Shown here one piece after another: positions 5,959 through 41,748 of a stretch of 49,365 bases of DNA (position 1 is the stretch's first letter; each line of letters begins with the position of its first letter). A model generated the notes under the pieces. It made no database searches. It was given only the letters and a program-made list of their open reading frames with translations, and was not told the origin of the DNA. The translations under genes were made by a program, and so were the position numbers. Source of the DNA: Chthonomonadales bacterium (GTDB taxonomy: Bacteria > Armatimonadota > Chthonomonadetes > Chthonomonadales > CAJBBX01); assembly GCA_020849275.1 (NCBI GenBank), contig JADLGO010000072.1, positions 1 to 49,365 of the forward strand, read 5' to 3'.

Positions 5959-5977
5959 GTGCGGCCCCAGGCCGCAC
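5959..5977 (+). other. Perfect hairpin in rpsQ-rplN spacer
   Basis: An 8-bp perfect stem (5959-5966 with 5970-5977, 3-nt loop) lies in the 75-bp rpsQ-rplN spacer, with no T-run after it. It may be an RNA processing or stability element; it is one of several similar hairpins in spacers of this superoperon. Confidence 0.5.
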
Positions 5978-6026
5978 CGGCCCCCCTCTCGGCGACCGCG
6001 CGCGCGCCCGCCGACCGGAGAGAACG

Positions 6027-6796: not shown

Positions 6797-6853
6797 CGCC
6801 GGGCGCGGGCCCTCGGGCCCCTCGGCCGTGACCCTGGATACCGGAGGCTACGC

Positions 6854-7405
6854 ATGGCTCGACTGAAGGAAATGTACAACGCGCAGATCGCCCCCGGCCT
6901 GCGCAAAGAGTTCGGATTCGGCAACGTGATGCAGGTGCCACGCCTGGAGAAGATCGTGCTCAACATGGGGGTGGGCCAGGCCGGCCAGACCGGCGGCGAC
7001 CCGAAGCTGCTGGACAACGCCATGCGCGACATGGGCATCGTCGCCGGCCAGAAGCCATGCGTCACGCGCGCGCGCAAGTCGATCTCCAACTTCAAGCTGC
7101 GCGCCGGCGCCCGCATCGGCTGCAAGGTGACTCTGCGCGGCGAGCGCATGTATGAGTTCCTGGACCGTCTGGTCTCCACCGCGCTCCCGCGCGTGCGTGA
7201 CTTCCAGGGGATCAGCCCCAACGCGTTCGACGGGCGCGGCAACTTCGCCATGGGCGTGCGGGAGCAGCTCATCTTCCCTGAGATCGACTACGACAAGGTG
7301 GATAAGGTGCGCGGCATGGACATCATCATCTGCACCACCGCCCGCACCGACGAGGAGGCTCGCGCGCTGCTGCGCGGGTTCGGCATGCCGTTTCGCCAGA
7401 GTTGA
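6854..7405 (+). CDS. rplE: 50S ribosomal protein L5
   Basis: L5 binds 5S rRNA and contacts the P-site tRNA. The 183-residue protein has [22 protein letters not shown], then [42 protein letters not shown] and [57 protein letters not shown] precedes the ATG. It is followed by the EF-G-like gene after 51 bp, where most bacteria have rpsN directly. Confidence 0.96.
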
Positions 7406-7456
7406 GGCGCCCTCGGGCGGCGGGCAGGTCCGATGACATCGAGGTGAAGGCTGGGA

Positions 7457-9538
7457 ATGAAAAAGTACGCGACTGAGGCGATCCGGAACGTCGGCCTCTT
7501 CGGCCACCAGGGCGCGGGCAAGACCTCGCTCGCCGAGGCGATGCTCTTCGTCTCCGGCGCCGTCGACCGAATGGGCCGGACCGACGAGGGAACCACCACC
7601 ACCGACTTCGACCCTGAGGAGACGCGGCGCAAGATCAGCATCAACACGGGGTTGGCGCCGTGTGAGTGGAACGGCTGCAAGGTGAATGTGGTCGACGTGC
7701 CGGGCTACCTGGACTTCTTCGGTGAGGTCAGCAGCGCGCTGCGCGTGGTCGACGCCGCCATCCTCGTGACGCCCGCCCAGGGCGCGGTGGAGGTCGGCTT
7801 CGAGACGGCCTGGGAGATCGCGGCCGCCAGCGAGCATCCGCGCGCCATCTTCGTCAACCGCATGGATCGCGAGAACGCGGATTTCCACGCCGTGGTGGAG
7901 AGCCTGCGCGGCGCCTACGGCAACGCCATCGCTCCCGTGCAGATCCCCATCGGGCAGGGCGAGGACTTCGTCGGCGTCGTCGACCTGGTGCACATGAAGG
8001 CGTACACTGGCGCCGGCAAGGAGACGAGCGCGGGGCCGATCCCGGCGGACCTGGCCGAGGCGGCCGGGCGCTACCGTGCTATGCTCGTGGAGTCCGCCGC
8101 CGAGGGCGACGACACGCTGCTGGAGAAGTACTTCGAGACGGAGGCACTGACCGACGAGGAGGTCCTGCAGGGGCTGCACGCGGGCATCGACGCCGGCCGG
8201 GTGGTGCCCGTGACCTGCGGCGCGGCCACCCGCGCCGCGGGCGTCGACCTGTTGCTGAACCTGGTCACCGAGGCCTTTCCCAACCCGACCGACATGCCGC
8301 CTGCCCGCGGCGCCTCGCCCGACGGCAAGCCCGCTGAGCGCGGGCCCGACGAGGCCGAGCCGCTCAGCGCGCTCGTGTTCAAAACGCTGGCGGACCCCTT
8401 CGTGGGCCAACTCACCTACTTCCGGGTGTTCTCCGGCGCTGTCCGCTCCGACTCGCACGTGTGGAACTCCTCCACCGGCAAGGACGAGCGCATCGGGCAG
8501 GTCTACGTGGTGCGAGGCAAGACCCAGGAGGCCGTGCCGGAGATCGCCGCCGGCGACATCGGCGCGGTCGCCAAGCTCGCTAACACGCACACCGGCGACA
8601 CGCTCTGCGAGCAGGGGAAGCCCATCGTCCTGGAGCCGCTCCAGTTCCCGAAGCCCATCTACGAGGTGGCCATCGTGCCGCGCACCAAGGTGGATGAGGA
8701 CAAGCTCGGCCCCGCCCTGCAGCGCGTGGCGTTTGAGGACCCGAGTTTCACCTTCCGGCGCGACCCGGCCACGGGACAGACGGTCATCAGCGGCATGGGC
8801 GAGACGCACCTGAACATCGCCATCGAGAAGTTGCGCAAGTTCGGCGCCAACGTCGAGAGCGTGCCGTTGCGCGTGCCCTACCGCGAGACCATCCAGGGCA
8901 AGGCCGAGGGCCAGGGCAAGCACAAGAAGCAGACCGGCGGCCGGGGCCAGTATGGCGACTGCTACATTCGCCTGGAGCCCCTGCCCCGCGGCGGCGGCTT
9001 CGAGTTTGTGGACGCCGTCGTTGGAGGCGCCATCCCGCGGCAGTACATTCCCGCGGTAGAGAAGGGCGTGGTGGAGGCCATGTCGACCGGCATCCTGTCC
9101 GGCAACCCGGTGCTCGACGTGCGCTGCACCGTGTACGACGGCTCCTACCACGATGTGGACTCCTCTGAGCAGGCCTTCCGGATGGCGGGAATCCTCGCGT
9201 TCAACAACGTGGCGTCGAAGGCGGGCCCGGTCATTCTTGAGCCGATGGTCACCGTCGAGGTGACCGTGCCCGAGTCGATGATGGGCGATGTGATGGGCGA
9301 CCTCTCGGGCAAGCGGGGGCGCATCATCGGCACGGAGGCCATGGGAGCCGGGCGCACGTGCGTTCGGGCGACTGCGCCGCACGCCGAGATGGTGCGCTAT
9401 GCGATCGACCTGCGGAGCATCACTCGCGGTCGGGGCACCTTCCGCATGGAGCCCTCGCACTACGAGGAGGTGCCGTCGCACGTCGCCCAGCAGATCATCG
9501 CCGACTACCAGAAGCGCCGCGAGGAGCAGCAGCACTAG
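7457..9538 (+). CDS. EF-G-2-like translational GTPase inside the spc operon
   Basis: The 693-residue protein has all EF-G domains. The G domain shows G1 GHQGAGKT (16-23), G3 DVPGYLDF (80-87) and G4 NRMD (134-137). Domain II follows from about 300. Domain IV keeps both tip loops, HKKQTGGRGQYG and HDVDSSEQAFRMAG. Two features depart from canonical EF-G: Tyr84 replaces the catalytic histidine of DTPGHVDF, and switch I reads RKISI, not RGITI. From memory, Thermus EF-G-2 shares the DxPGYxDF form, so this is probably that subfamily, not the main translocase. Its exact role is unknown. It lies between rplE (51 bp) and rpsN (130 bp), co-directional. Start ATG 7457; the Shine-Dalgarno is weak (GGCTGGG) with GAGGTGAAGG further upstream. 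Confidence 0.9.
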   Translation: MKKYATEAIRNVGLFGHQGAGKTSLAEAMLFVSGAVDRMGRTDEGTTTTDFDPEETRRKISINTGLAPCEWNGCKVNVVDVPGYLDFFGEVSSALRVVDAAILVTPAQGAVEVGFETAWEIAAASEHPRAIFVNRMDRENADFHAVVESLRGAYGNAIAPVQIPIGQGEDFVGVVDLVHMKAYTGAGKETSAGPIPADLAEAAGRYRAMLVESAAEGDDTLLEKYFETEALTDEEVLQGLHAGIDAGRVVPVTCGAATRAAGVDLLLNLVTEAFPNPTDMPPARGASPDGKPAERGPDEAEPLSALVFKTLADPFVGQLTYFRVFSGAVRSDSHVWNSSTGKDERIGQVYVVRGKTQEAVPEIAAGDIGAVAKLANTHTGDTLCEQGKPIVLEPLQFPKPIYEVAIVPRTKVDEDKLGPALQRVAFEDPSFTFRRDPATGQTVISGMGETHLNIAIEKLRKFGANVESVPLRVPYRETIQGKAEGQGKHKKQTGGRGQYGDCYIRLEPLPRGGGFEFVDAVVGGAIPRQYIPAVEKGVVEAMSTGILSGNPVLDVRCTVYDGSYHDVDSSEQAFRMAGILAFNNVASKAGPVILEPMVTVEVTVPESMMGDVMGDLSGKRGRIIGTEAMGAGRTCVRATAPHAEMVRYAIDLRSITRGRGTFRMEPSHYEEVPSHVAQQIIADYQKRREEQQH

Positions 9539-9543
9539 CGAAG

Positions 9544-9567
9544 TCGCCCGGGGGAGACCCCGGGCGA
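9544..9567 (+). other. Perfect hairpin with GAGA loop after the EF-G-like gene
   Basis: A 10-bp perfect stem (9544-9553 with 9558-9567) closed by GAGA, a GNRA-type tetraloop, starts six bases after the EF-G-like stop. No T-run follows, so termination is unlikely without other factors. It may set the relative levels of upstream and downstream mRNA. Confidence 0.6.
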
Positions 9568-9668
9568 GATGACGGCCGTCCGCCGTCGGCGGGAGCCTTC
9601 GGCGCGCCGTCGACAGCCGTAACGTTACCAGCCGCGCGAACACCGCGGCTCCGACGGGAGGAACCACG

Positions 9669-9854
9669 TTGGCTAAGAAGTGCCTCATCGTGAAGGCGTC
9701 GCGCAAACCGAAGTTCGCGGTGCGCGCCTACACGCGCTGCAATGTGTGTGGGCGCCCGCGCGGCGTCCTGCGCAAGTTCGGCCTCTGCCGCATCTGCTTT
9801 CGGGAGATGGCCCACCGCGCCCTGATCCCGGGCGTCACCAAGTCGAGCTGGTAG
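9669..9854 (+). CDS. rpsN: 30S ribosomal protein S14, zinc type (TTG start)
   Basis: This is the 61-residue zinc-binding S14 form. The ligands are C24-x2-C27 and C40-x2-C43, in [28 protein letters not shown], with the ending IPGVTKSSW. The start is TTG 9669, with GGGAGGAACC just upstream; the family sequence (MAKKC.IVK) begins there. Zinc S14 proteins are often replaced by a non-zinc copy under zinc starvation, but no second copy is visible in this window. Confidence 0.96.
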
Positions 9855-9864
9855 GAGGGCGATC

Positions 9865-10266
9865 ATGGCATACACCACCGATCCCGTGGCGGACCTGCTC
9901 ACGCGCATCCGCAACGCCAATCGCGCCTACCACGACTCGCTGGAGATTGCTGGCAGCCGCCTGAAGCTTGACGTGGTCAAGATCCTGCACCGCGAGGGGT
10001 TCATCAAGGGCTTCGAGATCGTCAAGGACCCCAAACAGGACCGGCTCAAGGTCTATCTGCGCTACGGCCCGCGCCGCGAGCGCGTGCTGACCGACCTGCA
10101 GCGCGTGAGCAAGCCGGGCCTGCGCGTCTACGCGGGCAAGGGCAGCGTGCCGCGCGTGCGTCGCGGCATGGGCATCGCCATTCTGACCACGTCGCAGGGC
10201 GTCATCACCGATCGCGAGGCGCGCCGCAAGGGCATCGGCGGCGAGGTGCTCTGCCACGTCTGGTAG
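9865..10266 (+). CDS. rpsH: 30S ribosomal protein S8
   Basis: S8 binds 16S helix 21 and regulates the spc operon in E. coli. The 133 residues open with [16 protein letters not shown] and end with the rRNA-binding [31 protein letters not shown]. The ATG follows AGGAGGGCGATC, 10 bases after the rpsN stop. Confidence 0.96.
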
Positions 10267-10291
10267 GGCGCATCGGCGTGAGGGCTTTGTG

Positions 10292-10319
10292 AGGCCGGGC
10301 GCCCTGGCGCGCCCGGCCT
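10292..10319 (+). other. Perfect hairpin in rpsH-rplF spacer
   Basis: An 11-bp perfect stem (10292-10302 with 10309-10319, 6-nt loop) fills the spacer and ends just before the rplF Shine-Dalgarno AAGGAGAG. It has no T-run. Its closeness to the ribosome-binding site could affect rplF initiation or protect the downstream mRNA. Confidence 0.55.
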
Positions 10320-10335
10320 GAAGGAGAGACGAGGT

Positions 10336-10911
10336 ATGTCACGCATCGGGAAGCGCCCAATCCCTATCCCGCAGGGCGTCGACGTGCAGGTGGGCGCCGG
10401 CTCCGTCACAGTGAAGGGCCCCAGGGGCACACTGACCAGGCCCGTCCACCCGGACATGATCCTCCGGCAGGACGACGGCGTGCTGCTGGTGGAGCGACCG
10501 AGCGACGACAAGGAGCACCGCTCCCTGCACGGCCTGACCCGCACGCTGGTGGCCAACATGGTCGAGGGCGTCACGAACGGCTACGCTCGCGCGCTGGACA
10601 TCGTGGGCGTCGGCTACCGCTCCGGCATGGCCGGCAAGAACCTGACGCTGGCGGTGGGGTTCTCGCACGGGATCGAGATCCCGCCCATGCCCGGAATTGA
10701 GTTCGAAGCCGGCACCGATCCCCAGACGCGCACGCCCTTCGTGCTCGTGAAGGGGATAGACAAGCAGCTCGTGGGCCACGTGGCCGCGCAGATCCGCTCG
10801 ATCCGTAAGCCCGAGCCCTACAAGGGCAAGGGTATCCGCTACCGCGGTGAGCAGATTCGCCGCAAGGCCGGCAAGAGCGGCAAGGCCGGGGCGAAGGGCG
10901 CCAAGAAGTAG
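10336..10911 (+). CDS. rplF: 50S ribosomal protein L6
   Basis: L6 supports the sarcin-ricin loop and the factor-binding region. The 191 residues carry MSRIGKRPIPIPQGV, KGPRGTL, NMVEGVTNGYARALDIVGVGYRSGMAGKNLTLAVGFSH and the C-terminal GIDKQLVGHVAAQIRSIRKPEPYKGKGIRYRGEQIRRKAGKSGK. A lysine/glycine tail makes it slightly longer than E. coli L6. AAGGAGAGACG precedes the ATG. Confidence 0.96.
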   Translation: MSRIGKRPIPIPQGVDVQVGAGSVTVKGPRGTLTRPVHPDMILRQDDGVLLVERPSDDKEHRSLHGLTRTLVANMVEGVTNGYARALDIVGVGYRSGMAGKNLTLAVGFSHGIEIPPMPGIEFEAGTDPQTRTPFVLVKGIDKQLVGHVAAQIRSIRKPEPYKGKGIRYRGEQIRRKAGKSGKAGAKGAKK

Positions 10912-10959
10912 CGTCCGGACGGCCGCTTCGCCGCTCTGGCGCGGCCCTTCGGCTTGCGG

Positions 10960-10965
10960 TATAAT
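10960..10965 (+). promoter_or_regulatory. Possible internal promoter (-10 TATAAT) before rplR
   Basis: A perfect TATAAT lies at 10960-10965 in the 129-bp rplF-rplR spacer of a very GC-rich region. No good -35 box is seen at 16-18 bp upstream (around 10936-10943). If real, it would start a 5' leader of about 70 nt for rplR and the genes after it. Confidence 0.35.
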
Positions 10966-11040
10966 GTACATTCGCGTCTGCCCAGCAGGCGGCCTGCCGG
11001 CGGGTCGGAAATCCGCCGAAGTCGAGGACGAGAAGAGCGC

Positions 11041-11400
11041 ATGGACGACAAGGTAAGACTGCGACTCAAGCGCCACCGTCGGGTGCGCGCCAAGGTGCAA
11101 GGCACGGCGGAACGGCCCCGGCTCAACGTGTTCCGGAGCCTCAAGCACATCTACGCCCAGCTCATCGACGACGACGCCGGCTCCACGCTGGCGACGGCCT
11201 CGTCGGTGGAGCCCGGCCTGCGCGAGCAGAAGGTCGTCGGCGGCGCGGTCGGTGGCGCGGAGGCCGTGGGGACCCTCATCGCCCAGCGCGCTCTCGAGAA
11301 GGGCATCCAGCGCGTCGTATTCGATCGTGGCGGCTTCATGTATCACGGGCGGGTAAAGTCCCTGGCCGATGCCGCCCGCAAAGGCGGGCTGGAGTTCTAA
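11041..11400 (+). CDS. rplR: 50S ribosomal protein L18
   Basis: L18 binds 5S rRNA and carries it into the large subunit. The 119 residues show [39 protein letters not shown] and end [28 protein letters not shown], a strongly conserved finish. The ATG at 11041 (GACGAGAAGAGCGC upstream) is preferred over an in-frame ATG at 10954, which would start before the putative TATAAT. Confidence 0.95.
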
Positions 11401-26992: not shown

Positions 26993-28012
26993 TCACCCCA
27001 CGTCCACCATCACCTTCACGCAGCGGTCGCCGTGCTCGTCAATGTAGCGGTAGGCGTCCGCGTAGCGCTCGAACGCGAAGTGCGCCGAGACGAGTGGCCC
27101 GGTCGCGACGGCGTCGGAACGGATGAGCCCGATCGCGCGCTCGTAGTCGCCGTGGCGATACATGAGCGTGCCGACCAGGCTCAGCTCGCGATCCTGCACG
27201 AGGCCCAGGTCAACGCGTGGCCTCTGGCCAAAGACGGCGACGATGACGATGGTCCCGCCCTTGCCGATGGTTGAGATCGCCGCGCCGACGGATGCCTCCG
27301 CGCCCGCGCACTCGAACGCGACCTCGACGCCGTCAGACCCGAACACTCGCCGCGCGGCCTCCCGCAGCGGCTCCCTGCCGGCGTGCGAGACGGCCTCCAC
27401 GCCGCAGCGGCGCGCCACCTCCAGGCGGTCGTCGCTCAGATCGGTAACCAGCACCCGGGCCCCCTCGCCGCGGGCGACCTGGGCCACCAGGTTGCCGATG
27501 GGCCCGGCGCCGAGCACCGCAACGGCGCGGCCGGCGAGCGCCGGCGCGCGCCCGACGGCGTGAACCGCCACGGCGACCGGCTCCACGAGCGCGCCCTGCT
27601 CCGGCGTGAAGCCCGTCGGTAGCGGCACCACGTTCCAGGCCGAGGTGACGAAGAGGTCCTGCGCGCAACCGGGCGCCTGGAAGCCGCGCACCTTGAGCGA
27701 CTCGCAGATGTGCCAGTCGCCGCGCCGGCATGGCGCGCACTCGCCGCAGACGATCTGGGGGAGCGCCGTCACGGGCTGCCCGGGCTGCAGGCCAGACGCG
27801 CCCGGGCCGAGCGCCTCCACGGTCGCCATTAGCTCGTGGCCCTGCACCACGGGGTACGGTGTGTAGGGGTGGGTGCCGTGGAAGACGTGCACGTCGGAGC
27901 CGCACACGCCGATGCGGCGGACGCGCAGCAGCACCTCGCCCGCTCCAGGGCGGGGCGCGGGCACGTCGCGGATCTCGAGCTCTCCGGGCGCGGTCAGCAC
28001 GGCCTGTCGCAT
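26993..28012 (-). CDS. Zinc-dependent medium-chain alcohol/polyol dehydrogenase
   Basis: The 339-residue protein is a medium-chain dehydrogenase/reductase. Catalytic zinc ligands are C37 (GVCGSDVH), H59 and E60 (GHE). The structural zinc lobe has C89, C92, C95 and C103. The Rossmann motif is VLGAGPIGN. The order resembles sorbitol, threonine and galactitol-type dehydrogenases; substrate is inferred to be a sugar alcohol or similar, matching the adjacent sugar-related genes. The start at 28012 is chosen because GGAGGT sits seven bases upstream and the family begins MRQAVL; an ATG at 28123 would add 37 unlikely residues. It appears to be the first gene of the - strand operon. Confidence 0.9.
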   Translation of the reverse strand: MRQAVLTAPGELEIRDVPAPRPGAGEVLLRVRRIGVCGSDVHVFHGTHPYTPYPVVQGHELMATVEALGPGASGLQPGQPVTALPQIVCGECAPCRRGDWHICESLKVRGFQAPGCAQDLFVTSAWNVVPLPTGFTPEQGALVEPVAVAVHAVGRAPALAGRAVAVLGAGPIGNLVAQVARGEGARVLVTDLSDDRLEVARRCGVEAVSHAGREPLREAARRVFGSDGVEVAFECAGAEASVGAAISTIGKGGTIVIVAVFGQRPRVDLGLVQDRELSLVGTLMYRHGDYERAIGLIRSDAVATGPLVSAHFAFERYADAYRYIDEHGDRCVKVMVDVG

Positions 28013-28137
28013 CGCGCGACCTCCAGGCGAGGCGGCTCCATCCGCGGAGCGGTTCGCCGCCGCGCGCGGGGGTTCCTTCCGCCCGTCGAAGGCTAGCGCG
28101 CCACTCGGTGTCCGGGCCGGCATCGCCAGTCACAGCG

Positions 28138-28263: not shown

Positions 28264-28387
28264 GTGGCTTCGGGCGCGATCATCACGCGCCAATGGCGAA
28301 TGGGACGCAGCTAGCATAGCCCGCGTGCCCCTGAGGATGCGAAGGAGCCGCGGCGCGGGGCGTCGAAAGCCGGCAGGGAGGACGCAC

Positions 28388-30454
28388 ATGCGAGGCCCGC
28401 TGCTTGCGGCCGCCGCCGCGCTCGTGCTCGTCCGCGGAGCGGGCGCGACGCCCGGCGCCGGTTTTCCGCGCATCGCCAACCTGTGGGGCGCGAGCCCGCT
28501 TGCGCGCGACTATGCCCGGTGGGCCCGCTACGACCTGCTCGTGATGGGCGGCGGCCCCATCGAGGACTGGAGGCGCTTTGGCGCCGAGGTCCGCAAGCGC
28601 AACCCCGGCATACGGCTCCTCGGCACCGCGCCCCTGATGAACCTGGGCAAGCCCGAGGACACCCCCTGGATGCGCCCCGAGTGGTTCGCGTGCCGGCCCG
28701 ATGGAAGCATGGTGCGCTGGTGGGCGGACATGGTCTACCTCCCCAACCTCCTGCGCGATGACTGCCTGAACGCGCTGGTGGGCGAGTCTGACCGCCAGTA
28801 TGGTCGCCTCTTGCGCGAGTCGCTCGTGGACGGACTCTTCTACGACAGCGTCGTCGGGTCGGCGACCTGGCTGGGTGACATCGACCTGGACGGCGACGGC
28901 GGGGCCGACTCCCCCGAGAAGGTGAATCCGGCCTGGCACGCGCGCCAGTGCCGCTTCTTCGACCGCCTGCGTGAGCGCTGGCCGGGGGCCGTCATCCTGG
29001 CCAACGACGTCGATCTCGGCCACGCCCGGCACGTGAACGGCCGGCTCTTCGAGGGCGGCCCGTTGCTGGACCGGCTCATCAGCGGCAACCTGCACCCTCG
29101 GGAGGCCATCCGAACCCTCGACGGCTGGATGGCGGCCTCCCTCCAACCCGGCGTCACGTTCGCCCTGATGAGCCACCCACTCGGCTGGCAGGGCTGGCGC
29201 GTGGGCAAGGGCGACCGCGTGACGACGCGCGGCGAGGTGGATCGCGTGCGGCGCGATTACCACCGAATGCGGCTCGGCCTGCTGACCACGCTGATGACCG
29301 ACGCCTACTTCGCCTACGACGTCGGCACGGTCTGGTACGGGGTGCCGCTTTGGTACGCTGAATACGAGGCGCCGCTCGGCAAGCCACTCGGGCCCTGTCG
29401 CGAGGTGTTCGGGGTTCCGCCGCGCGTGCTGCTGGACTGGCGGGCGGGCTCGCCGACTCGGGGCCTGGTGCTCGGCGGCGCCGCCCGCATCGCTCCGGCG
29501 GGCGTGGAGGCGGGGGCCGGCGATCAGGCCGGGGGCTGGCAGCGCCTTCTCGCCACGGACCCCGCTCGCGTGCGCTTCGAGGGAGGCGACACCTATCGCA
29601 TCGAGGCGGACGCGCGGATCTTGCGCAAGCCCTCCGGCTTGCTTCAGTTCAACCTGAGGACGGCGACGGGCGGTTGGGAGCGGCACGACAAGGGCGTGCG
29701 AACGAGCACGGGGGATGCCGGCACGAACTGGCATATCGACGTGACGGTGACGCCCGATGCCTTCGACGACTACGCCGCCGAGCTGCATCTCAACGGCGAC
29801 GGAGCCGTGCGGCTGACCCGCCTGCGCGTCACGCATGTGCGCCGAGCCTACCTGCTGCGGGAGTTCGAGGGCGGCGCCGCCGTGTTGAACGTGATGCCGC
29901 GGACGATCACCGTGAAGTTGCCCTCCGGCCTGCGACGGCTGCGCGACGCGGCGGCGCCGCGCCACGTCGTGGAGGTGGACGACGAGTCGCCCGGCTTCAT
30001 AGCGGCCGGAGCCTGGGAGCGCGTGGGCGGCGAGGTGCGCGGAGTGGGCTCCGGCTACCGCCGCGCCCGCAAACCGGGCGCGGTGGCGCGGTGGCGGTTT
30101 CGCGCGCCCGCCGCCGACGCCTACACGCTCTTCGTCTCGCTGCCGGACGGGCGCGGACTCACCGAGGGTGCGACGTATACTGTAACGGCGCCGGCCGGCG
30201 GATCGGGCCGCGCGCTCACGCAGCGTGGCGGCGATGGCGGCTGGAAGCGACTGACACGCGTGCGGCTGCTAGCCGGGGAGCGCTGCGAGGTGACGCTGCG
30301 GAGCGGCGGCGCGGGCGACACGGCCGCCGACGCGCTGCGCGCCGAGAGCGACGCGCGCTACAACGACGGTTCGGCAGCGCAAACCATAGCGCTGGCGCCT
30401 CTCGACGGCGCGGTGCTCGTTCGCCGGGCGGGCGCTCGCCGGGCGGTGCGCTGA
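28388..30454 (+). CDS. Secreted hypothetical-GH15-like protein with golvesin-type C-terminal domain
   Basis: The 688-residue protein begins with a signal peptide (MRGPLLAAAAALVLVRGAGATPG). Residues about 25-370 resemble the hypothetical glycosyl hydrolase GHL15-type (PF14885-like) barrels: RIANLWGASPLARDYARWARYDLLVMGG, VDGLFYDSVVG and the following IDLDGDGGADSPEKVNPAW. A beta-rich part follows, and residues about 560-670 look like a golvesin C-terminal/CBM-like domain (VVEVDDESPGFIAAGAW, YRRARKPGAVARWRFRAPAADAYTLFVSLP, ADALRAESD). Function is inferred as extracellular polysaccharide binding or cleavage; activity is unproven. Start ATG 28388 follows GGGAGGACGCAC. It is followed by the DUF4838-like gene after 29 bp. 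Confidence 0.65.
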   Translation: MRGPLLAAAAALVLVRGAGATPGAGFPRIANLWGASPLARDYARWARYDLLVMGGGPIEDWRRFGAEVRKRNPGIRLLGTAPLMNLGKPEDTPWMRPEWFACRPDGSMVRWWADMVYLPNLLRDDCLNALVGESDRQYGRLLRESLVDGLFYDSVVGSATWLGDIDLDGDGGADSPEKVNPAWHARQCRFFDRLRERWPGAVILANDVDLGHARHVNGRLFEGGPLLDRLISGNLHPREAIRTLDGWMAASLQPGVTFALMSHPLGWQGWRVGKGDRVTTRGEVDRVRRDYHRMRLGLLTTLMTDAYFAYDVGTVWYGVPLWYAEYEAPLGKPLGPCREVFGVPPRVLLDWRAGSPTRGLVLGGAARIAPAGVEAGAGDQAGGWQRLLATDPARVRFEGGDTYRIEADARILRKPSGLLQFNLRTATGGWERHDKGVRTSTGDAGTNWHIDVTVTPDAFDDYAAELHLNGDGAVRLTRLRVTHVRRAYLLREFEGGAAVLNVMPRTITVKLPSGLRRLRDAAAPRHVVEVDDESPGFIAAGAWERVGGEVRGVGSGYRRARKPGAVARWRFRAPAADAYTLFVSLPDGRGLTEGATYTVTAPAGGSGRALTQRGGDGGWKRLTRVRLLAGERCEVTLRSGGAGDTAADALRAESDARYNDGSAAQTIALAPLDGAVLVRRAGARRAVR

Positions 30455-33391: not shown

Positions 33392-34366
33392 TCAGCTGGC
33401 CCGTGCGGCGTACGGCTCCAGGCCGTGGAAGGCCTGCCGGATCCACTGATAGTTCTGCTCGCCCATGCCGAGCGACGCGTAGTCCTCCACGTAGGCGATG
33501 AAGCCGCCGCCGAATCGCCCGAGCTCGTCGCGCAGGCGGCGCGCGTAGGCGAGGATCTCCTCGCGCGAGCCGCTGACGGCGCGCCGCTGGTGATCGACGG
33601 AACAGCAGAAGCAGACCCGCCCCCCGAAGTCGCGCGCCAGCCGCTCCACGCCGAAGACGTCGGGCTGGAGCAGCTCGATCACGTCCACGCCGATGTCGAT
33701 CAGGTCGCCCAGGATGGCGTACACGTCGCCGCACGTGTGGAACCAGACCTTCTTGCCGGCGCGGCGCAGGCGCGCGAACTGGTCGGCGTAGCGCGGCCGA
33801 AATATCCTGCGCCAGCGCTCCGGCGCGATCATCAGTCCGGCCTGTGTGCCCCAGTCGTCGCCGAAGGCCACGGCATCGACGGGCAGGGAGGCAGCGCGGT
33901 CGATCAGGCCGTTCTCGAAGCCGAACACCATGTCGAGCACGTGTTGCGCGCGATCCGGCTCGAGGGTGAGGTCCATCAGGAAGGCCTCGAAGCCACGAAG
34001 GAAGGTGGCCTGGTTGAAGCCGCTGATGCCGAGGCTGAGCTTGAGGAACCGATGGGCATGCTCGGACGCCCAGGCCTCCACGTGGTCGAGGCGGCCCGGC
34101 GCGGCGGGGTCCGGCGGCACGTAGGCGGCGGCGCGATCCCAGTCGGCGAGCGGGTGCGTGTGGGGCTGGCCCATCGTGGCGTCGAGCGACCGCCACGCGT
34201 AGCCCCACTCGGTCATCCCTGGCTCGGATGGCGCGAAGCCGGGAGCCGGCGCGTAGCCCACCGCGAGCGTATCGGAGCACTCGAAGTCGCGGTTGCAGTA
34301 GTTGACGGGCACGCGCGGCGGTCCGCGCCGCTCGATGGCGCGGTAGACGATCTCCCTGGGGGTCAT
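33392..34366 (-). CDS. URO-D/MtaA-family protein
   Basis: The 324-residue protein has the uroporphyrinogen-decarboxylase fold pattern but not the HemE signature (no MRQAGR at the start), so it is unlikely to make haem. WFHTCGDV (around residue 210) provides the His-x-Cys zinc pair of MtaA/CmuA-type methyltransferases; GGRVCFCCSVDHQ follows. Such proteins move methyl groups from a cobalamin carrier to a thiol. The start, ATG 34366, follows GGAGAGCACCCG. It is divergent from the gene at 34528 by 161 bp. Its closest function is unknown. Confidence 0.75.
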   Translation of the reverse strand: MTPREIVYRAIERRGPPRVPVNYCNRDFECSDTLAVGYAPAPGFAPSEPGMTEWGYAWRSLDATMGQPHTHPLADWDRAAAYVPPDPAAPGRLDHVEAWASEHAHRFLKLSLGISGFNQATFLRGFEAFLMDLTLEPDRAQHVLDMVFGFENGLIDRAASLPVDAVAFGDDWGTQAGLMIAPERWRRIFRPRYADQFARLRRAGKKVWFHTCGDVYAILGDLIDIGVDVIELLQPDVFGVERLARDFGGRVCFCCSVDHQRRAVSGSREEILAYARRLRDELGRFGGGFIAYVEDYASLGMGEQNYQWIRQAFHGLEPYAARAS

Positions 34367-34527
34367 CGGGTGCTCTCCGTGGGGCGCCAGCGCGCGACGC
34401 CCGGCAGCACGTTCGCGGCGGGCCGGCGGCCTTCCTCCCGGGCGCGGCGCCTGCGCCGGCAGGAGCCGGGGCGTCGGCGCGCGAACTTGCGGATCGCCGG
34501 ACCATTCGCCGGCCGAAAGGACCGCAC

Positions 34528-35634
34528 GTGGCCGGACCCCTCACCTACCGCGAGCGCTTCGCCCTCACGCTCGACCACCGCCCGGTCGACCGCCCGCCGA
34601 TGGACCTGGCCTCCACCGACATGACCGACATCGACGGCGGGCCGCGCCGGCTGGCGTCGCTCCTGGGCATCGCTGCCGACGGGCCCGATGCTGACGAGGC
34701 CGTGCTGCGCGCGCTGGACACCGACATCCGCGGCGTGGGTGGCGTGCTGGCCCCGGAGAGCCCGCTGGCGCGGCGCGTATCGGACACGGAGATGACGGAC
34801 TGCTGGGGGATCGGCTACCGCTGGAACGGGCATCACTTCGAGGCGGTGGGTCGGCCGCTGGCGGGCGCCACTCTCGCCGACCTGGAGCGTTTCCCCTGGC
34901 CGGACCCCGACCGAATCCCGCGGGGCACGATCGAGGCGGTCGCCGCCCGGGCGCGCCGCCTGTATGAGGAGACGCCCTACGTGGTGTGCGCGCGGCACCC
35001 CTGCCTGGGCGTGCTGGAGCTCGGCTGCTGGATGTGCGGGTTCGATGACTTCCTCTACCGCATGGCCGGGGAGCCGGGGTTCGTGCATCGCTTCTTCGAG
35101 ATCGTGCTGGCCTATCAGAAGCGAGTGATGGAGCGTTACTACGGCGCGCTCGGCCGCTGGATCCACTTCACGACGAGCGGCGATGACTTCGGGACGCAGA
35201 CCGGCCCCTTTGTGTCGCCGCGCATGTTTCGCGGGCTCGTGCTGCCCTACTTTGCCGAGCGCGTCCGCTGGCTGCGGCGATTCACGGACGCCACGTTCTT
35301 CCACCATTCCTGCGGGTCCGTCGTCGCCATCATCCCGGACCTGATCGGCGCGGGCGTCCAGATCCTCAACCCGATCCAGCCGCGCGCGGCCGGCATGGAG
35401 CCCGATCGGCTCAAGCGCGAGTTCGGCGACCGTCTCACGTTCTACGGCGGCGTGGACACGCAGATCCTGCTGCCGCGCGGCACGGCCGCAGAGGTGGAGG
35501 CCGCCACCCGCGAGCTGATCGGCGTGCTCGGCCGCGACGGCGGCTACGTGCTCTCGGCGGCACACATCGTGCAGGAGGACGTTCCGGAGGCCAACGTGCT
35601 GGCCATGTTTCGCGCGGGGCGCGCGTCCCGGTAA
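34528..35634 (+). CDS. URO-D/MtaA-family protein (GTG start)
   Basis: A 368-residue relative of the divergent gene. FFHHSCGSV (H260, C262) is the candidate zinc pair, followed by LTFYGGVDTQILLPRGT and GGYVLSAAHIVQEDVPEANVLAMF, a pattern common in URO-D-family proteins of Planctomycetes, Lentisphaerae and Armatimonadota. HemE signatures are missing. It may be a methyltransferase or a decarboxylase of an unknown small compound. The GTG at 34528 follows GAAAGGACCGCAC. No corrinoid protein is seen in the window. Confidence 0.75.
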   Translation: MAGPLTYRERFALTLDHRPVDRPPMDLASTDMTDIDGGPRRLASLLGIAADGPDADEAVLRALDTDIRGVGGVLAPESPLARRVSDTEMTDCWGIGYRWNGHHFEAVGRPLAGATLADLERFPWPDPDRIPRGTIEAVAARARRLYEETPYVVCARHPCLGVLELGCWMCGFDDFLYRMAGEPGFVHRFFEIVLAYQKRVMERYYGALGRWIHFTTSGDDFGTQTGPFVSPRMFRGLVLPYFAERVRWLRRFTDATFFHHSCGSVVAIIPDLIGAGVQILNPIQPRAAGMEPDRLKREFGDRLTFYGGVDTQILLPRGTAAEVEAATRELIGVLGRDGGYVLSAAHIVQEDVPEANVLAMFRAGRASR

Positions 35635-35884: not shown

Positions 35885-36063
35885 GGTGATCGTCTCCCCG
35901 GGGCCGGCGCGACTCCGCGCATGGGTTCGCCGGTCCCTGGCACAGAGGACGCCGGCGAGCGCCTTCGGGTTCCCCGCGGTCGCCGCCCTTCGCCGCGGTG
36001 CTCGCAACGCGGCCACGCCCGAGCCGTCGCGAGCCGGGCTACGATGCCCCCAAGGAGCGCCCT

Positions 36064-39000
36064 ATGGCTGATCTGGTGCAAACGATGCGCTTGCGAGTCG
36101 CCGAGATCGGCGGCTGCGTGGTTCGCGAACAGGTCCGGCTGGACGGCTGGCAGGTCCGCGCCGCGCTGCATTTGGCCCCCGGCCGCTACGAGCCGCTCGA
36201 GGCGGGCTGGCGCTCGCTCGATGTCGGCGGCGCCTGGGCGCGGCCGGGCGAGACGGCCTTCCTGCGCCGCGAGGTGCGCGCGCCGGACCACTGGCGCGGG
36301 CTGCGCGTGGGACTGGAGCTGCGGACGGGGGGCGAGGGGTTGCTGAGTGTCGACGGCACGGCGCGGCACGGGATCGACGACAACCGGGGCTACATCCTGC
36401 TCACGCCCCGGTGCGAGGGCGGCGAGACCTGGCGCTGCGAGGCGGAGATGAAGCCGGGCGGCTATCTGGAGTACGTCTCCAGAGACCGCTCGCGTCTGAG
36501 CGTGCTCGCCGAGGCGCGCCTGCTGGGCATCGACGCCGAGGCCGAGCGCGCATGGTACGACTTCCGCGTGCTCCACGAGTGCGCGGCCGCCCTGCCGGAC
36601 GCCACGGCCCGCGAGGCGCTTCTCCTTGCGATGCGCGAGGCGCTGCGGAGCGTCGACTTTCGCCGCAAGGGCGAGCCGGGTTTCGGCGCGGAGCTCGCCG
36701 CGGCGGGGGCCGCCCTGCGCGCCCGCGTCGCGGAGATCCCCTACTGGCGACACCCGGGCGCCATCTTCTTCGCGGGCCACTCGCACATCGACGTGGCGTG
36801 GCTCTGGCCACTGCGCGAGACGGCGCGCAAGGTCGGCCGCACCTACTCCACCGTGACCGCGCTGATGGACGAGTACCCGAACTATCACTTCGTGTGCAGT
36901 CAGGTGCCTCTCTTCCTCTATTTGCGCGAACACTTCCCTGGCGTCTACGAGCGGGTGAAGGAGCGCGTGCGCGAGGGCCGGTTCGAGCCGGTCGGGGGCA
37001 CGTGGGTGGAGAACGACTGCAACGTGGTCTCTGGCGAGTCGCTCGTTCGCCAGTGCCTCTACGGGCAGCGCTTCTTTCGAGACGAGCTGGGCGTCGACGT
37101 GCGCGTGGGCTGGCTGCCGGACGTGTTCGGCTACTCGTGGGCGCTGCCGCAGATCTATCGCAAGAGCGGGATCGAGTACTTCATGACCGCCAAGGTGGCC
37201 TGGAACGAGCGCAACCGCCTGCCCTACAACACCTTCTGGTGGGAGGGCATCGACGGCAGTCGTCTCCTCACCCATCTTGTCCACAACCTGGGCAACATGT
37301 ACAACGCGCACGCGAAGCCGGCCGAGATGCTGCGCCAGTGGGAGGACTACCGCTCCATGCTGGCCTGCCCGGAGGTGCTCTGCCCCTTCGGCTACGGCGA
37401 CGGCGGCGGCGGGCCCACCCGCGAGATGCTGGAGTACATCCCGCGCATGGCCGACGTGCCCGGCCTGCCAGCGGCGGGCACCGGCCGGGTGCACGGCTTC
37501 TTCGACCGCATCGCGGCCGGCGCGGGCGATCTGCCGGTGTGGAACGGCGAGATGTACTTCGAGCGCCATCGTGGCACCTACACGACCCAGGCATGGAACA
37601 AGCGCTGCAATCGCCGAGCCGAGCTGACGCTGCGCGAGGCCGAGATGCTGGCCGCGTTCGCCGTGCCGCTCGGCGCCGCGTACCCGAAGGCCGACCTCAC
37701 GAGCACCTGGCACACGGTGCTCCTCAACCAGTTCCACGACATCCTGCCCGGCTCGTCGATCCGCGAGGTCTACGAGGACTCTCGCCGCGACTACGCGCGG
37801 GCGCTGGAGGATGCGGGACGGCTGCGCGCGGAGGCGCTCGAGCACATCGCGGCGCGCGTGGACACTGCCGGTCCGGGCGCGCCCGTCGTCGTCGTCAACG
37901 CGCTCGCCTGGCCGCGCACCGATCTGGCTTCCGCGCCCCTGCCGCCCGGCACCGAGAGCGCCGGCGTCACCGGGCCCGACGGGCGGCCCGCGCCCTGCCA
38001 GGCGAGCGCCGGGCGCGCGCTCTTCCTCGCGCGCGACGTGCCGTCGTGCGGCCTGGCCGTCTACCGGCTTGGACCGCCCGACGTGACGCCGGACACGGCC
38101 GCGTTCCAGATGGACGGCGCGCGCGTGGTCACCCCGTGGTACGAGGTGACGCTCGGACCCAACGGAACGCTGGCGCGCCTCTACGACCGCGACGCCGGCC
38201 GCGAGGTGCTGCCGCCCGAGGGAGGGGCCAACGCCCTGATCGCCTTCGAGGACAAGCCGGTGAGCGACGAGGCGTGGGACATCGACGCGAGCTACGAGGA
38301 GCGCTGCTGGCCCTTCGAGGCCGAGGGTGCGCCGGAAGAGGTGGAGCAGGGGCCCGTGAGGCTTGTGCTGCGCCAGGCGCTGCGCTACGGCGCCTCGCGC
38401 CTGGAGCAGCGCGTCGTCTTCTACGCGCACACTCCGCGCATCGACTGGGAGACGACGGTGGACTGGCAGGAGCGCAAGACGCTGCTGAAGGTGGCCTTCC
38501 CGGTGGAGGTGCGTTCCCCGCGCGCCACCTACGAGATCGCGTTTGGCGCCATTGAGCGGCCCACGCACCGCAACACGAGCTGGGATGAGGCGCGCTTCGA
38601 GGTCTCCGGCCACCGCTGGGCGGACCTCTCAGAAGCGGGCTACGGCGTGAGCGTGCTGAACGACTGCAAGTACGGCTGGGACGTTCGCGGCAGCGTGATT
38701 CGGCTGACGCTGTTGCGCTCGCCAGAGAGCCCGGACCCCGAGGCAGACCGGGGCGAGCACCGCTTCACCTACGCGCTGCTTCCGCATCGCGGCGACTGGC
38801 GCGGGTCCACGCTGCGCGAGGCGCACGCGCTCAACGCACCGCTGCTGGCGGCGCCCCGAGCGGCGCGGCCTGGCGAGCTGCCGGCGTCTCACTCCTTCCT
38901 CTCGGTGGACGCGCCGAACGTGGTGGCGGACGCCGTGAAGGAGGCGGAGGGCGACGACGCCCTGATCGTGCGGCTCTACGAGGCGCACGGCGCGCGTGGG

Positions 39001-39156
39001 CCGGTGGCGCTCACCTTCGACCGCGATGTGGTGGAGGCGGTGGAGTGCGACCTGCTGGAGCGGCCCGGCGGCTCCGCCAGGCGGGACGGGCGCGTTGTGC
39101 GGCTGGCGGTGCGGCCCTTCGAGGTGCGCACGCTGCGCCTGCGTCTGGCGCGGTGA
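36064..39156 (+). CDS. Alpha-mannosidase, GH38 family
   Basis: The 1030-residue protein matches GH38 alpha-mannosidases, retaining enzymes with a zinc ion that release mannose from glycans. Zinc ligands and catalytic motifs are visible: GHSHIDVAWLWP (residues about 238-249) and WLPDVFGYSWALPQ, with Asp353 as the likely nucleophile. HDILPGSSIREVYEDSRRDY is the third family motif. The C-terminal half is beta-rich. No signal peptide is seen, so it is probably cytoplasmic and would act on imported oligosaccharides. Start ATG 36064 follows AAGGAG. It ends 19 bp before the histidine kinase gene on the other strand. Confidence 0.93.
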   Translation: MADLVQTMRLRVAEIGGCVVREQVRLDGWQVRAALHLAPGRYEPLEAGWRSLDVGGAWARPGETAFLRREVRAPDHWRGLRVGLELRTGGEGLLSVDGTARHGIDDNRGYILLTPRCEGGETWRCEAEMKPGGYLEYVSRDRSRLSVLAEARLLGIDAEAERAWYDFRVLHECAAALPDATAREALLLAMREALRSVDFRRKGEPGFGAELAAAGAALRARVAEIPYWRHPGAIFFAGHSHIDVAWLWPLRETARKVGRTYSTVTALMDEYPNYHFVCSQVPLFLYLREHFPGVYERVKERVREGRFEPVGGTWVENDCNVVSGESLVRQCLYGQRFFRDELGVDVRVGWLPDVFGYSWALPQIYRKSGIEYFMTAKVAWNERNRLPYNTFWWEGIDGSRLLTHLVHNLGNMYNAHAKPAEMLRQWEDYRSMLACPEVLCPFGYGDGGGGPTREMLEYIPRMADVPGLPAAGTGRVHGFFDRIAAGAGDLPVWNGEMYFERHRGTYTTQAWNKRCNRRAELTLREAEMLAAFAVPLGAAYPKADLTSTWHTVLLNQFHDILPGSSIREVYEDSRRDYARALEDAGRLRAEALEHIAARVDTAGPGAPVVVVNALAWPRTDLASAPLPPGTESAGVTGPDGRPAPCQASAGRALFLARDVPSCGLAVYRLGPPDVTPDTAAFQMDGARVVTPWYEVTLGPNGTLARLYDRDAGREVLPPEGGANALIAFEDKPVSDEAWDIDASYEERCWPFEAEGAPEEVEQGPVRLVLRQALRYGASRLEQRVVFYAHTPRIDWETTVDWQERKTLLKVAFPVEVRSPRATYEIAFGAIERPTHRNTSWDEARFEVSGHRWADLSEAGYGVSVLNDCKYGWDVRGSVIRLTLLRSPESPDPEADRGEHRFTYALLPHRGDWRGSTLREAHALNAPLLAAPRAARPGELPASHSFLSVDAPNVVADAVKEAEGDDALIVRLYEAHGARGPVALTFDRDVVEAVECDLLERPGGSARRDGRVVRLAVRPFEVRTLRLRLAR

Positions 39157-39175: not shown

Positions 39176-41518
39176 CTATGCGTCCAGCACGCCGCGCACT
39201 CGGGCGACCAGCCCGTTGGGAGAGAAGGGCTTCGGCAGGAATGCCATGCCGGGCTTGAGCTCGCCCTGGTGGCCGAGGCTGTTGTCCGTGTAGCCGGAGA
39301 CGTAGAGCACTTTGAGGCCGGGCCGCGTGGCCTGAAGCCGCGCGGCCAACTCCGTACCGCCCATCTGCGGCATCACCACGTCGGTGACCAGGAGGTCGAT
39401 CGTGTCCGCGTACACGGCGGCCGCCTCCAGCGCCTCACGGCCGTTGGGCGCGGCGATCACCTGGTACCCATGCGCGCGCAGCGCCGTGACGCTGATGTCG
39501 CGGACCGTCGGCTCGTCCTCCACCAGCAGCACGGTCTCGGTGCCGACCTCGCGGCGGGGCGCGGAGCGCTCGCGCCCGGGATCCGGGCTGCCCACCGCCC
39601 GTGGCACGTAGACCTTGACGGTGGTGCCGCGCCCTGGCTCGCTGTAGACCCAGATGTCGCCGCCGAGTTGCTTGACGATCCCGTAGCTCACGGCGAGGCC
39701 GAGTCCCGTGCCCTTGCCGACCTCCTTCGTCGTGAAGAACGGCTCGAAGATCCGCTCGCGGACCTCCTCGGTCATGCCGACCCCCGTGTCCGAGACGGCC
39801 AGCAGGACGTGCTCGCCCGGCACGACGCTGACGTGGTGGCGCGCGTATTCCTCGTCCAGCACCACGTTGGAGGTCTCGATGGTGAGCAGGCCGCCATCGG
39901 GCATGGCATCGCGCGCGTTGACGGCCAGGTTCAGGATCACCTGTTCCATCTGGCCGGGATCCACGCGCGCCGTCCATAGGCCCCGCTCCTGGCGCACCTC
40001 CAACTCGATGTTCTCGGGGATCAGCCGGCGCAGCAGCCGGCCCATGCTCGCGACCAGGGAGGCCAGGTCCACGAGCTGCGTCTCGATGATCTGGCGGCGG
40101 GCGAACGCAAGAAGCTGGCGCGTGAGGTCGGACGCCCGCTCGGCCGCGCGCTCGATGTGCTCGATGCAGTCGCGCACGGACGGCTCCGTGGTGCCGGGCG
40201 TGCGGGCCATCTCGGCGTAGCCCAGGATGGCGGTGAGGAGGTTGTTGAAGTCGTGCGCCACGCCGCCGGCCAGCAGCCCGGTGGCCTCCATTTTCTGCGC
40301 CTGCAGGAGTTGCTCGTGGAGTTGCTTGCGCTCCGTCATGTCGCGCACCATCAGCGTCGCCTCGTCGTCGCCGTTGGCGGCGATGCGCGCCTCGAAGCCG
40401 CGCACCACGCGGCCTTCGTGCACGCTGTAGTCGAAGGCCTGCTGGGAGCCGGTGCGCAGGGTCTCCTTCACACGGCGCAGGCACTCGGCGGCGGCTCGCG
40501 GGGGCATGACGTCGGAAAGCCGGAGCGACTCGGCGCCGTCCGAGGAGGCGTCGGGGTCGGCATGCACGTCGGCGCAGCGTCCGTCCTCGCGGACGCGGTA
40601 GATGCGATCGGGGATCGCGTGGAGCAGCGCGCGGTTGCGGGCGTAGGCTCGGCGGAGTCGCTCCTCGGCGCGTTTGCGGTCGGTGATGTCGCGGGCGATG
40701 CCCGTGAAGAGGCGGCCGCGCTCGAGCGCTACCTCGCCGACGGCGAGGTCCAGAGGGAAGACGGTGCCGTCCTTGCGAAGGCCGGCGACCTCGCGCCCGA
40801 TGCCGATGATGCGCCGCTCGCCGGTCTCCAGGTAGCGCGCGATGTGGCCGTCGTGCTCCTCACGGTCGGGCGAGGGCATCAGCATCGAGACGTTGTGTCC
40901 CAGCACCTCCTCCGCCTTGTAGCCGAATATGCGCTCGGCGGCGGGGTTGAACATCTCAACGACGCCCGCTTCATCGATGGCGATCATACCGTCGACCGCG
41001 GTCTCCACGATGGAGCGCAAGCGAGCCTCGCTCTCGCGCAGGTCCTGCTCCGCGCGCGCTCGGCCGGAGACGTCGCGCTCGATGGCCAGCCAGTGGGTGA
41101 GCCGGCCGTCTCCGTCCCGGATCGGGGATATGTCGATCTGCAGCAGGAACTCGGAACCGTCCTTGCGGTAATTGGTGATCTGGGTGGTGATCGGGCGCTC
41201 GCGCTGCAGGCTCGCACGCACCGTCTCCAGGCGCCGGCGGTCGGTGCGCGGCCCCTGGAGCATCCGGGGCGTGTGGCCGATCACCTCCCGTCGACTGTAG
41301 CCCGTCAGGCGCTCGAAGGCGGGGTTCACATAGACGATCCGCGGGCCCGGCCGGTCGAGGGGCGCCGCCTCGGTGACCAGCACGGCCTCGCGCATGCCTT
41401 CGACGACCCATTCCGCGGGGGGCAGTTGCGGTGCGTCGATCGGCACGCCGTGCGCCCCGGACGGCGCCAGGGAGCCGGGAACGCCCGTCGCGGGGCGCGG
41501 TCCTCCGGCGGAGTCCAT
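39176..41518 (-). CDS. PAS-domain hybrid histidine kinase with receiver domain
   Basis: The 780-residue sensor has no membrane segment. Two to three PAS regions lie at about 40-150, 158-275 and 285-390 (the first includes RIVYVNPAFERLTGYSRREVIGHTPRMLQGPRT). The HisKA region has GGVAHDFNNLLTAILGYAEMA with phosphorylated His422. The ATPase part shows NLAVNARDAMPDGGLLTI, DTGVGMTEEV and GTGLGLAVSYGIVKQLGG. A receiver domain closes the protein, with Asp713 in LLVTDVVMPQMGG. It probably relays phosphate to a separate partner, which is not visible nearby. The start at 41518 is more plausible than 41617, which has no Shine-Dalgarno and low-complexity residues. Confidence 0.92.
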   Translation of the reverse strand: MDSAGGPRPATGVPGSLAPSGAHGVPIDAPQLPPAEWVVEGMREAVLVTEAAPLDRPGPRIVYVNPAFERLTGYSRREVIGHTPRMLQGPRTDRRRLETVRASLQRERPITTQITNYRKDGSEFLLQIDISPIRDGDGRLTHWLAIERDVSGRARAEQDLRESEARLRSIVETAVDGMIAIDEAGVVEMFNPAAERIFGYKAEEVLGHNVSMLMPSPDREEHDGHIARYLETGERRIIGIGREVAGLRKDGTVFPLDLAVGEVALERGRLFTGIARDITDRKRAEERLRRAYARNRALLHAIPDRIYRVREDGRCADVHADPDASSDGAESLRLSDVMPPRAAAECLRRVKETLRTGSQQAFDYSVHEGRVVRGFEARIAANGDDEATLMVRDMTERKQLHEQLLQAQKMEATGLLAGGVAHDFNNLLTAILGYAEMARTPGTTEPSVRDCIEHIERAAERASDLTRQLLAFARRQIIETQLVDLASLVASMGRLLRRLIPENIELEVRQERGLWTARVDPGQMEQVILNLAVNARDAMPDGGLLTIETSNVVLDEEYARHHVSVVPGEHVLLAVSDTGVGMTEEVRERIFEPFFTTKEVGKGTGLGLAVSYGIVKQLGGDIWVYSEPGRGTTVKVYVPRAVGSPDPGRERSAPRREVGTETVLLVEDEPTVRDISVTALRAHGYQVIAAPNGREALEAAAVYADTIDLLVTDVVMPQMGGTELAARLQATRPGLKVLYVSGYTDNSLGHQGELKPGMAFLPKPFSPNGLVARVRGVLDA

Positions 41519-41748
41519 GCGTCTGCGCTCTCTTCCCGCCGCGGCGCCGACACCGATGCAGCCGCCGCGACGTCCATGTTGCTGTAGGTGACCTGCCTGG
41601 CTGGCCGGCGGTTCCACGGCGCCCGGCGCGAGCCCACGCGTGCTGTTAAGTGCTACTAACTATATTCCGATGGCCGCGTTCCGGGTTCCTGCCGCTTGCG
41701 GCCGTCTGGAAGCGCCCCGGACCTCTGGGAACGCTCTGGGCGCGCGGA

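Follow-up and report, generated by a model that had tools for sequence, protein, structure and literature searches.

The window analysed here is contig C72 (JADLGO010000072.1, taken over its whole length of 49,365 nt) from the genome of a Chthonomonadales bacterium of the phylum Armatimonadota (GCA_020849275.1; 4.80 Mb in 73 contigs, 99.92% complete). Two divergent open reading frames (ORFs) in this window, ORF1 and ORF2, encode proteins of the URO-D superfamily. A preliminary description, made from the sequence letters, had presented them as non-HemE members of the URO-D/MtaA family beside glycan genes. We consider both to be probable corrinoid-dependent methyltransferases. The pair is arranged as follows:

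33392-34366, minus strand: ORF1, 324 aa, ATG start; URO-D-superfamily protein, predicted corrinoid-dependent methyltransferase (MT1 type)
34367-34527, unstranded: intergenic region between the divergent ORF1 and ORF2 starts, 161 nt, 80% G+C
34528-35634, plus strand: ORF2, 368 aa, GTG start; URO-D-superfamily protein, predicted corrinoid-dependent methyltransferase (MT1 type)

The gene pair, its family and its fold

The divergent URO-D pair is real. Both proteins matched PF01208 above its curated cut-off of 23.9 bits (ORF1, 6.7e-10, 38.9 bits; ORF2, 4e-16, 59.4 bits) and are members of the family. They are genes and not chance ORFs, because orthologues occur in a genus of the same family (g4; 64-68% identity for ORF1 and 69-71% for ORF2) and the AlphaFold models have a high mean pLDDT (93.2 for ORF1, 93.8 for ORF2). 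An in-frame TAG in the ORF1 orthologues was set aside, being the natural stop codon near the end in the one that was translated (L098). Gene calls followed either a codon-based caller or a longest-ORF rule, and start positions may be off. The intergenic region would need to carry the promoters of both genes.

The His-x-Cys pair earlier noticed in each protein corresponds to H210/C212 in ORF1 and H260/C262 in ORF2. It is invariant in all 8 aligned rows of the ORF1 family and in all 26 aligned rows of the ORF2 family, the latter drawn from several phyla. The same alignments showed invariance of C252/C255 and E294 (ORF1) and of D219, D220 and H346 (ORF2). The later motifs on which the two proteins had been told apart were also found (CFCCSVDHQ in one, GGVD and AAHIVQ in the other), and their distinctness is borne out by separate orthologous families and separate tree clades. 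As they belong to two different families, ORF1 and ORF2 perhaps act on two substrates or on two positions.

The best Foldseek matches in the PDB were MtaA entries for both models (4ay8/4ay7 for ORF1, 4ay7 for ORF2), at 13-16% identity. The query TM scores of ORF1 against the two MtaA entries were 0.72 and 0.69, indicating the URO-D/MtaA barrel fold. In a second structural alignment, the ORF2 model matched 23 URO-D and MtaA rows at Z 24.9-26.4 over 305-318 residues (rmsd 2.9-3.7), with URO-D chains and MtaA tied at Z of about 25-26. Caprolactam racemase, a weak PDB sequence match of ORF2, was set aside, as the fold search returns MtaA and URO-D.

The relationship to HemE was examined in a tree of 79 rows (80 were aligned; G141_451670, a 110-aa protein cut by the end of its locus, was dropped before building), which takes in 12 of the 25 ORF2 relatives and leaves out CdmB, OdmB and VdmB sequences. 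Seven HemE proteins of the phylum formed one clade (100/100), and ORF1 and ORF2 fell inside a separate 46-row clade (98/97) that holds no HemE, MtaA or Mlp row. Within it, ORF2 grouped with twelve relatives (100/100) and ORF1 with three (100/99). Several rows of the tree are long-branched and unsure in placement, those of ORF1 and ORF2 not among them. Furthermore, the seven aligned HemE proteins carry FGTG or FATG at the His-x-Cys columns, which ORF1 and ORF2 do not, and the hemE profile gave no match up to E 1 for either protein. Tree placement and profile scores rule out HemE identity; neither protein nests in the HemE clade, and the non-HemE claim holds.

Strict membership of the MtaA family, which the same label had implied, was not upheld. 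The mtaA_cmuA model TIGR01463 scored 24.8 and 34.1 bits for the pair against a cut-off of 235.4, and both proteins stand apart from the MtaA/Mlp rows, whose own grouping is weak (73/39). In the alignment, the His and Cys of the MtaA zinc site are kept, and the column of the third zinc-binding Cys holds His346 in ORF2 and a Tyr in ORF1. ORF1 may use a different third Cys ligand, via C252/C255 elsewhere in the protein. Following one account (PMC10418091), the loss of this Cys would argue for O-methyl over S-methyl substrates, less strongly for ORF1.

A pattern scan gave 25 relatives of ORF2 (42-72% identity), with records from Fimbriimonadaceae, Planctomycetota, Chloroflexi, Clostridia, Spirochaetaceae, Bacteroidia, Lentisphaeria and others, some labelled "uncultured bacterium". 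Genes of the ORF1 and ORF2 types are adjacent in two further lineages. In another Armatimonadota family (G154, L231) they form a tandem pair (59% and 45% identity) with two GH2 genes, one of whose products bears mannosidase Ig domains; in a Clostridiaceae genome (L180) the tandem pair (45% and 46-47% identity) adjoins a sulfatase gene. In a Lachnospiraceae locus (L182) the two starts lie 5.8 kb apart. With the thresholds applied, each family has matches in 11 of the 291 genomes of the phylum: both in five genomes, the ORF1 family only in six and the ORF2 family only in six. Among the five with both, the genes are adjacent in two and apart in three, which belong to genus g4.

As a side observation, the ORF2-type gene of the Lachnospiraceae locus (2226-11131) is accompanied by several genes of URO-D type, a ROK-type kinase and a PFL-like glycyl-radical enzyme (PF02901).

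Corrinoid genes and the URO-D set

The genome holds a corrinoid protein and a reductive activase, as an MT1 role needs. Pieces of corrinoid proteins with B12-binding domains were found at four contig ends (C1:1-481, C5:1-469, C29:63685-63930 and C50:104354-104596; L047-L050). All four pairings of these ends show an exact overlap of 79 nt, and the motif DLHDIG occurs in the two N-terminal pieces. Two near-identical corrinoid-protein genes thus appear to have been broken by the assembly, a situation that the overlap pattern fits. Downstream of the C29 piece there are a gene that matched no family, two URO-D genes and a gene of the homocysteine-S-methyltransferase type, and the C50 piece has an MtaB-type gene downstream. 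NCBIfam searches returned MtaB_Meth (9.1e-111) and homocysteine-methyltransferase models, all under their curated cut-offs. On C33, an MtaA-like gene is followed by the corrinoid activase RACo, and CbiM and CbiQ are also present. Cobalamin use, proposed earlier as a check on the genome, is therefore supported by its gene content.

Two genes of the genome matched PF00809 (Pterin_bind), a MetH-type frame of 1263 aa on C11 and one read as FolP, and no separate folate-type acceptor enzyme was seen among these matches. Since only these two were found, homocysteine would be a more likely methyl acceptor than folate.

In a genome of the same family (G141), a corrinoid operon run of about 17 kb was observed on its contig C1 (~447-464 kb). 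It encodes a corrinoid protein, MtaB (PF12176, 9.9e-159), a homocysteine methyltransferase (PF02574, 1e-69), DUF1638 and RACo. Seven URO-D genes also lie in it, among them an MtaA-like one and one related to ORF1 (36% identity), as do three genes that matched no Pfam model. Three of the seven fall inside the 46-row clade of ORF1 and ORF2. Similar operon cores, judged by eye, occur in G175, G082 and G102, and also in G096, G136 and G089, where the corrinoid protein has no MtaB next to it. Additionally, a Rikenellaceae metagenome-assembled genome (L194) encodes a corrinoid protein ~8.3 kb from its ORF2-type gene.

Several minor features of these operons were recorded. Genes of 350-420 aa (L114 1171-2430 and 8708-9790, L150 11396-12469, and G000 C29:62545-63609) resemble distant URO-D relatives, with HLDG motifs in three of the four; three of the type in G141 had no Pfam match and that of the present genome no NCBIfam match. 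A conserved protein of ~247 aa, recognised by eye, adjoins DUF1638 in the corrinoid operon (L153 13984-14727, L156 12551-13294, L154 2370-3113). In the present genome, a gene of this type (C18:49675-50418) and a DUF1638-like gene (C18:56534) flank a URO-D gene (C18:55458). On the same contig, a 297-aa B12-binding protein (C18:29987-30880, L052) lies about 5 kb from CbiM/CbiQ and, from its N-terminus judged by eye, is perhaps a corrinoid-sensing regulator.

The genome contains 35 URO-D matches, 34 of them over the cut-off, and ORF1 and ORF2 are two of these 35. Four further genes were judged URO-D relatives beyond this number, one of a type without a Pfam match in G141. The closest paralogue of ORF1 is C63:39568 (40% identity). 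The best URO-D score in the genome was 214.5 bits, for a C33 protein (next, 89.3), and HemE-grade matches in the phylum reach 401-456 bits; the C33 protein scored 64.8 bits with hemE (cut-off 302.95) and 162.3 with mtaA_cmuA (cut-off 235.4). As a side observation, no HemE-grade URO-D was seen in this nearly complete genome; G089, G096 and G136, of the same family, each have one (447-450 bits).

Across 201 genomes of the phylum, URO-D was detected in 145 and RACo in 132, and no genome has RACo without URO-D. Of the genomes with three or more scored URO-D matches, 130 have RACo and one, 64% complete, does not; of those with fewer than three, 2 have it and 68 do not. The Fisher value (3.8e-50), obtained with scoring limited to ~9 matches per genome, overstates independence in that the genomes are related, and the URO-D/RACo link should be taken as an association, without reliance on its p-value. 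RACo-bearing genomes hold a median of 30 first-look URO-D candidates (the present genome, 44 candidates for its 35 matches). RACo was found in 11 of 11 ORF2-family genomes and in 10 of 11 ORF1-family genomes, the eleventh (G280) lying outside the RACo sample.

Proposed function and glycan context

We judge it probable that ORF1 and ORF2 both work as substrate-specific MT1 enzymes (corrinoid methyltransferases) within a large set of demethylases, with O-methyl sugars as the likeliest substrate. The corrinoid role is drawn from gene context. For the two proteins we infer activity, zinc, the direction of transfer, the sugar substrate and homocysteine as acceptor. In the proposed mechanism, a large MT1 set that includes the pair would share one corrinoid hub, whose genes lie in other parts of the genome. 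The substrate, a methyl ether in the cytosol and most likely an O-methyl sugar that neighbouring glycosidases such as GH38 have freed or prepared, would enter the URO-D barrel, where zinc on His-x-Cys and a third ligand would activate the ether oxygen. The third ligand is predicted to be His346 in ORF2; in ORF1, a Cys or Glu from the motifs CFxC and YVED would probably take this place. The methyl group would pass to Co(I) of the stand-alone MtaC-type corrinoid protein (whose pieces lie at the C29, C1, C5 and C50 ends), kept reduced by RACo, and then chiefly to homocysteine via the stand-alone S-methyltransferase of the corrinoid operon, yielding methionine and the free sugar.

The glycan neighbour noted earlier beside the pair was recovered:

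36064-39156, plus strand: GH38 alpha-mannosidase, 1030 aa, downstream of ORF2; start from the codon-based gene caller

A Pfam scan of its frame (35998-39156) gave PF01074 (3.1e-90), PF07748, PF09261 and PF17677, and no obvious signal peptide was seen by eye at the N-terminus. The gene starts ~430 nt past ORF2, with one doubtful 80-aa ORF in the gap. Jack bean alpha-mannosidase is likewise a GH38 enzyme. Within 5 kb of ORF2-type genes, GH38 occurs in 5 of 35 loci, GH2 in 6 and GH127 in 2, and any of these in 12; all ten neighbouring proteins scanned were confirmed by Pfam as GH38, GH2 or GH127. Control stretches of 12 kb taken at random from the same genome held such genes in 2 of 20 cases (p 0.059), and stretches around its other URO-D genes in 1 of 27. 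Contig ends truncate many ORF2-type loci (9.0 kb was covered on average), and a single genome supplied the controls; the link of ORF2 with glycosidases, mannosidases included, is suggestive.

The 3-O-methyl and 3,6-di-O-methyl mannose at the ends of Chlorella N-glycans are described as resistant to jack bean alpha-mannosidase in PMC6344472, and because of this resistance O-methyl mannose is a concrete substrate candidate. Nothing observed points to the lignin-type compounds that had been named as an alternative. A wider scenario would be a long shot as a whole. In it, a methylated substrate would be taken up, stripped of its methyl groups along the corrinoid route and cleaved by the cytosolic GH38, the methyl groups ending up in methionine, and Armatimonadota would carry dozens of sugar demethylases per genome around one hub.

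Several observations weigh against the assignment of the pair to corrinoid-dependent sugar demethylation. Profile searches gave no B12-binding or RACo match on C72; the earlier remark that no corrinoid protein lies nearby is thus true for the window and its contig, but corrinoid proteins are encoded elsewhere in the genome. The ORF1 relative in the G141 operon groups as an orthologue with the paralogue C63:39568 (100/100) and not with ORF1, and neither the ORF1 family nor the ORF2 family has a match in G141 under the thresholds applied. In genus g4, the orthologues of ORF1 and ORF2 lie apart and without GH38, and GH38 is found in none of six further Armatimonadota ORF2 loci. The glycosidase enrichment is suggestive at most, and the paralogue loci of the genome hardly show GH38, GH2 or GH127; sulfatase (4 of 27 versus 1 of 20) and Gfo/Idh genes (7 of 27 versus 2 of 20) are somewhat commoner there, in mostly longer stretches. 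The Pfam tallies of immediate neighbours of the URO-D genes differ little from those of random genes, and a glycan neighbourhood of the whole set is not claimed. These tallies cover 111 of 117 neighbour genes and 136 of 180 control genes (60-1500 aa) and gave Gfo/Idh 4 versus 3, a xylose-isomerase-like barrel 4, sulfatase 3 and pectate-lyase-like 3, each of the last three versus at most 2, with the control represented by its top 25 families. The substrate assignment is drawn from gene neighbourhood alone.

The alternative that fares best, although we regard it as unlikely, is that ORF1 and ORF2 are corrinoid-free sugar or sugar-acid enzymes of the URO-D fold (e.g. a zinc lyase, decarboxylase or isomerase), with an indirect tie to RACo. 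Most URO-D genes of the genome are scattered, with no corrinoid gene alongside, and His-x-Cys is kept in 19 of the 35 matches and replaced in 16 (HxD in 6, DxD in 5, others in 5), so the set need not share one chemistry, a point that also counts against the assignment. On the other side stand the near-exclusive pairing of multi-copy URO-D with RACo in the 201 genomes, the members of the same clade within a corrinoid operon, and the invariant His-x-Cys in the aligned rows of both families.

A role as corrinoid methyltransferases for sulfur or selenium compounds, like MtaA/MtbA/MtsA or the type 1 mlp clusters (Mlp1-3), appears improbable. Such a role would fit the shared superfamily, MtaA as the best structural match of both proteins, and a genome with an MtaA-like enzyme plus RACo. 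However, the pair lies apart from the MtaA/Mlp rows and has His346 or Tyr at the third Cys column, and no sulfur or selenium gene was recognised adjoining it. In Kountz & Balskus 2023 (PMC10418091), type 1 mlp clusters have two or three Mlps each and are proposed to act on methyl-selenium or methyl-sulfur compounds. The present system differs in its 35 genome-wide matches, in the clade of ORF1 and ORF2, and in operons with a homocysteine methyltransferase and, in several, MtaB; the combination of Mlp2, Mlp3, corrinoid protein and RACE in one cluster that marks the type 1 class was not found on C72. The least probable alternative, in which the two proteins form a complete transfer couple of one MT1 and one MT2 (methyl-corrinoid to acceptor), would suit their adjacency in three lineages (the window, L180 and L231) despite separate clades, but fits poorly with the six genomes that match the ORF1 family only and the six that match the ORF2 family only, and with operons that already supply a candidate MT2, the homocysteine methyltransferase and, in G141, the MtaA-like protein.

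Comparison with known systems and further features of the window

Read as sugar-directed MT1 enzymes, ORF1 and ORF2 share with MtaA (methylcobamide:coenzyme M methyltransferase of Methanosarcina mazei, 4ay7/4ay8) the URO-D barrel and His-x-Cys at the zinc-site columns; they differ in the low identity, the third ligand and the tree position, and coenzyme M would not be expected as acceptor in this bacterium. With HemE they share the Pfam family and the fold, and the HemE clade excludes them. Another comparison is with OdmB/VdmB and CdmB of acetogens, described in PMC13222342 and PMC10418091 as URO-D-fold MT1 proteins for phenolic methyl ethers or chloromethane, of which CdmB is stated to hold no zinc. 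They are likened to the pair by description, as MT1 proteins of the same fold that pass a methyl group to a corrinoid protein, and not by sequence. Tetrahydrofolate is given as the usual acceptor in such bacterial systems (PMC10418091). Glycine betaine demethylation by MtgC/MtgD, as described in PMC12478193, is likewise cobalamin-dependent and tied to methionine synthesis in an aerobic bacterium, with an N-methyl donor and other methyltransferases.

Algal glycans, among others, contain O-methyl sugars, and the sole removal route found was the cytochrome P450 demethylation of 6-O-methyl-D-galactose in marine bacteria, which, according to PMC10033563, also acts on an O-methyl sugar within a polysaccharide pathway; unlike the proposed route, it is oxidative, yields formaldehyde and uses no corrinoid. 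Among open-licence texts, examined by title and start of abstract, no work on URO-D expansion in Armatimonadota or on corrinoid demethylation of O-methyl sugars was found. Comparable kinds are known (the mlp clusters, acetogen O-demethylases and MtgC/MtgD), and the present set stands out by its size, a layout without linkage, a likely outlet to homocysteine and its glycan context. If the proposal is true, the methyl group would be removed without oxidation and conserved for methionine by the corrinoid route. The abundance in Armatimonadota of proteins named for a heme enzyme would then be accounted for as well, and a family that spans Clostridia to Bacteroidia would gain a testable function.

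The following genes were also identified in the window:

26993-28123, minus strand: zinc-type alcohol/polyol dehydrogenase (PF08240 6.7e-26, PF00107 2.1e-23)
28388-30454, plus strand: GHL15 and golvesin C-terminal domain protein (PF14885 1.2e-8, PF25275 2.9e-9, on 28325-30454); start from the codon-based gene caller

The GHL15/golvesin protein is likely exported, from its hydrophobic N-terminus judged by eye. Downstream of the GH38 gene, on the opposite strand, a PAS-domain hybrid histidine kinase with a receiver domain was observed at 39176-41617.

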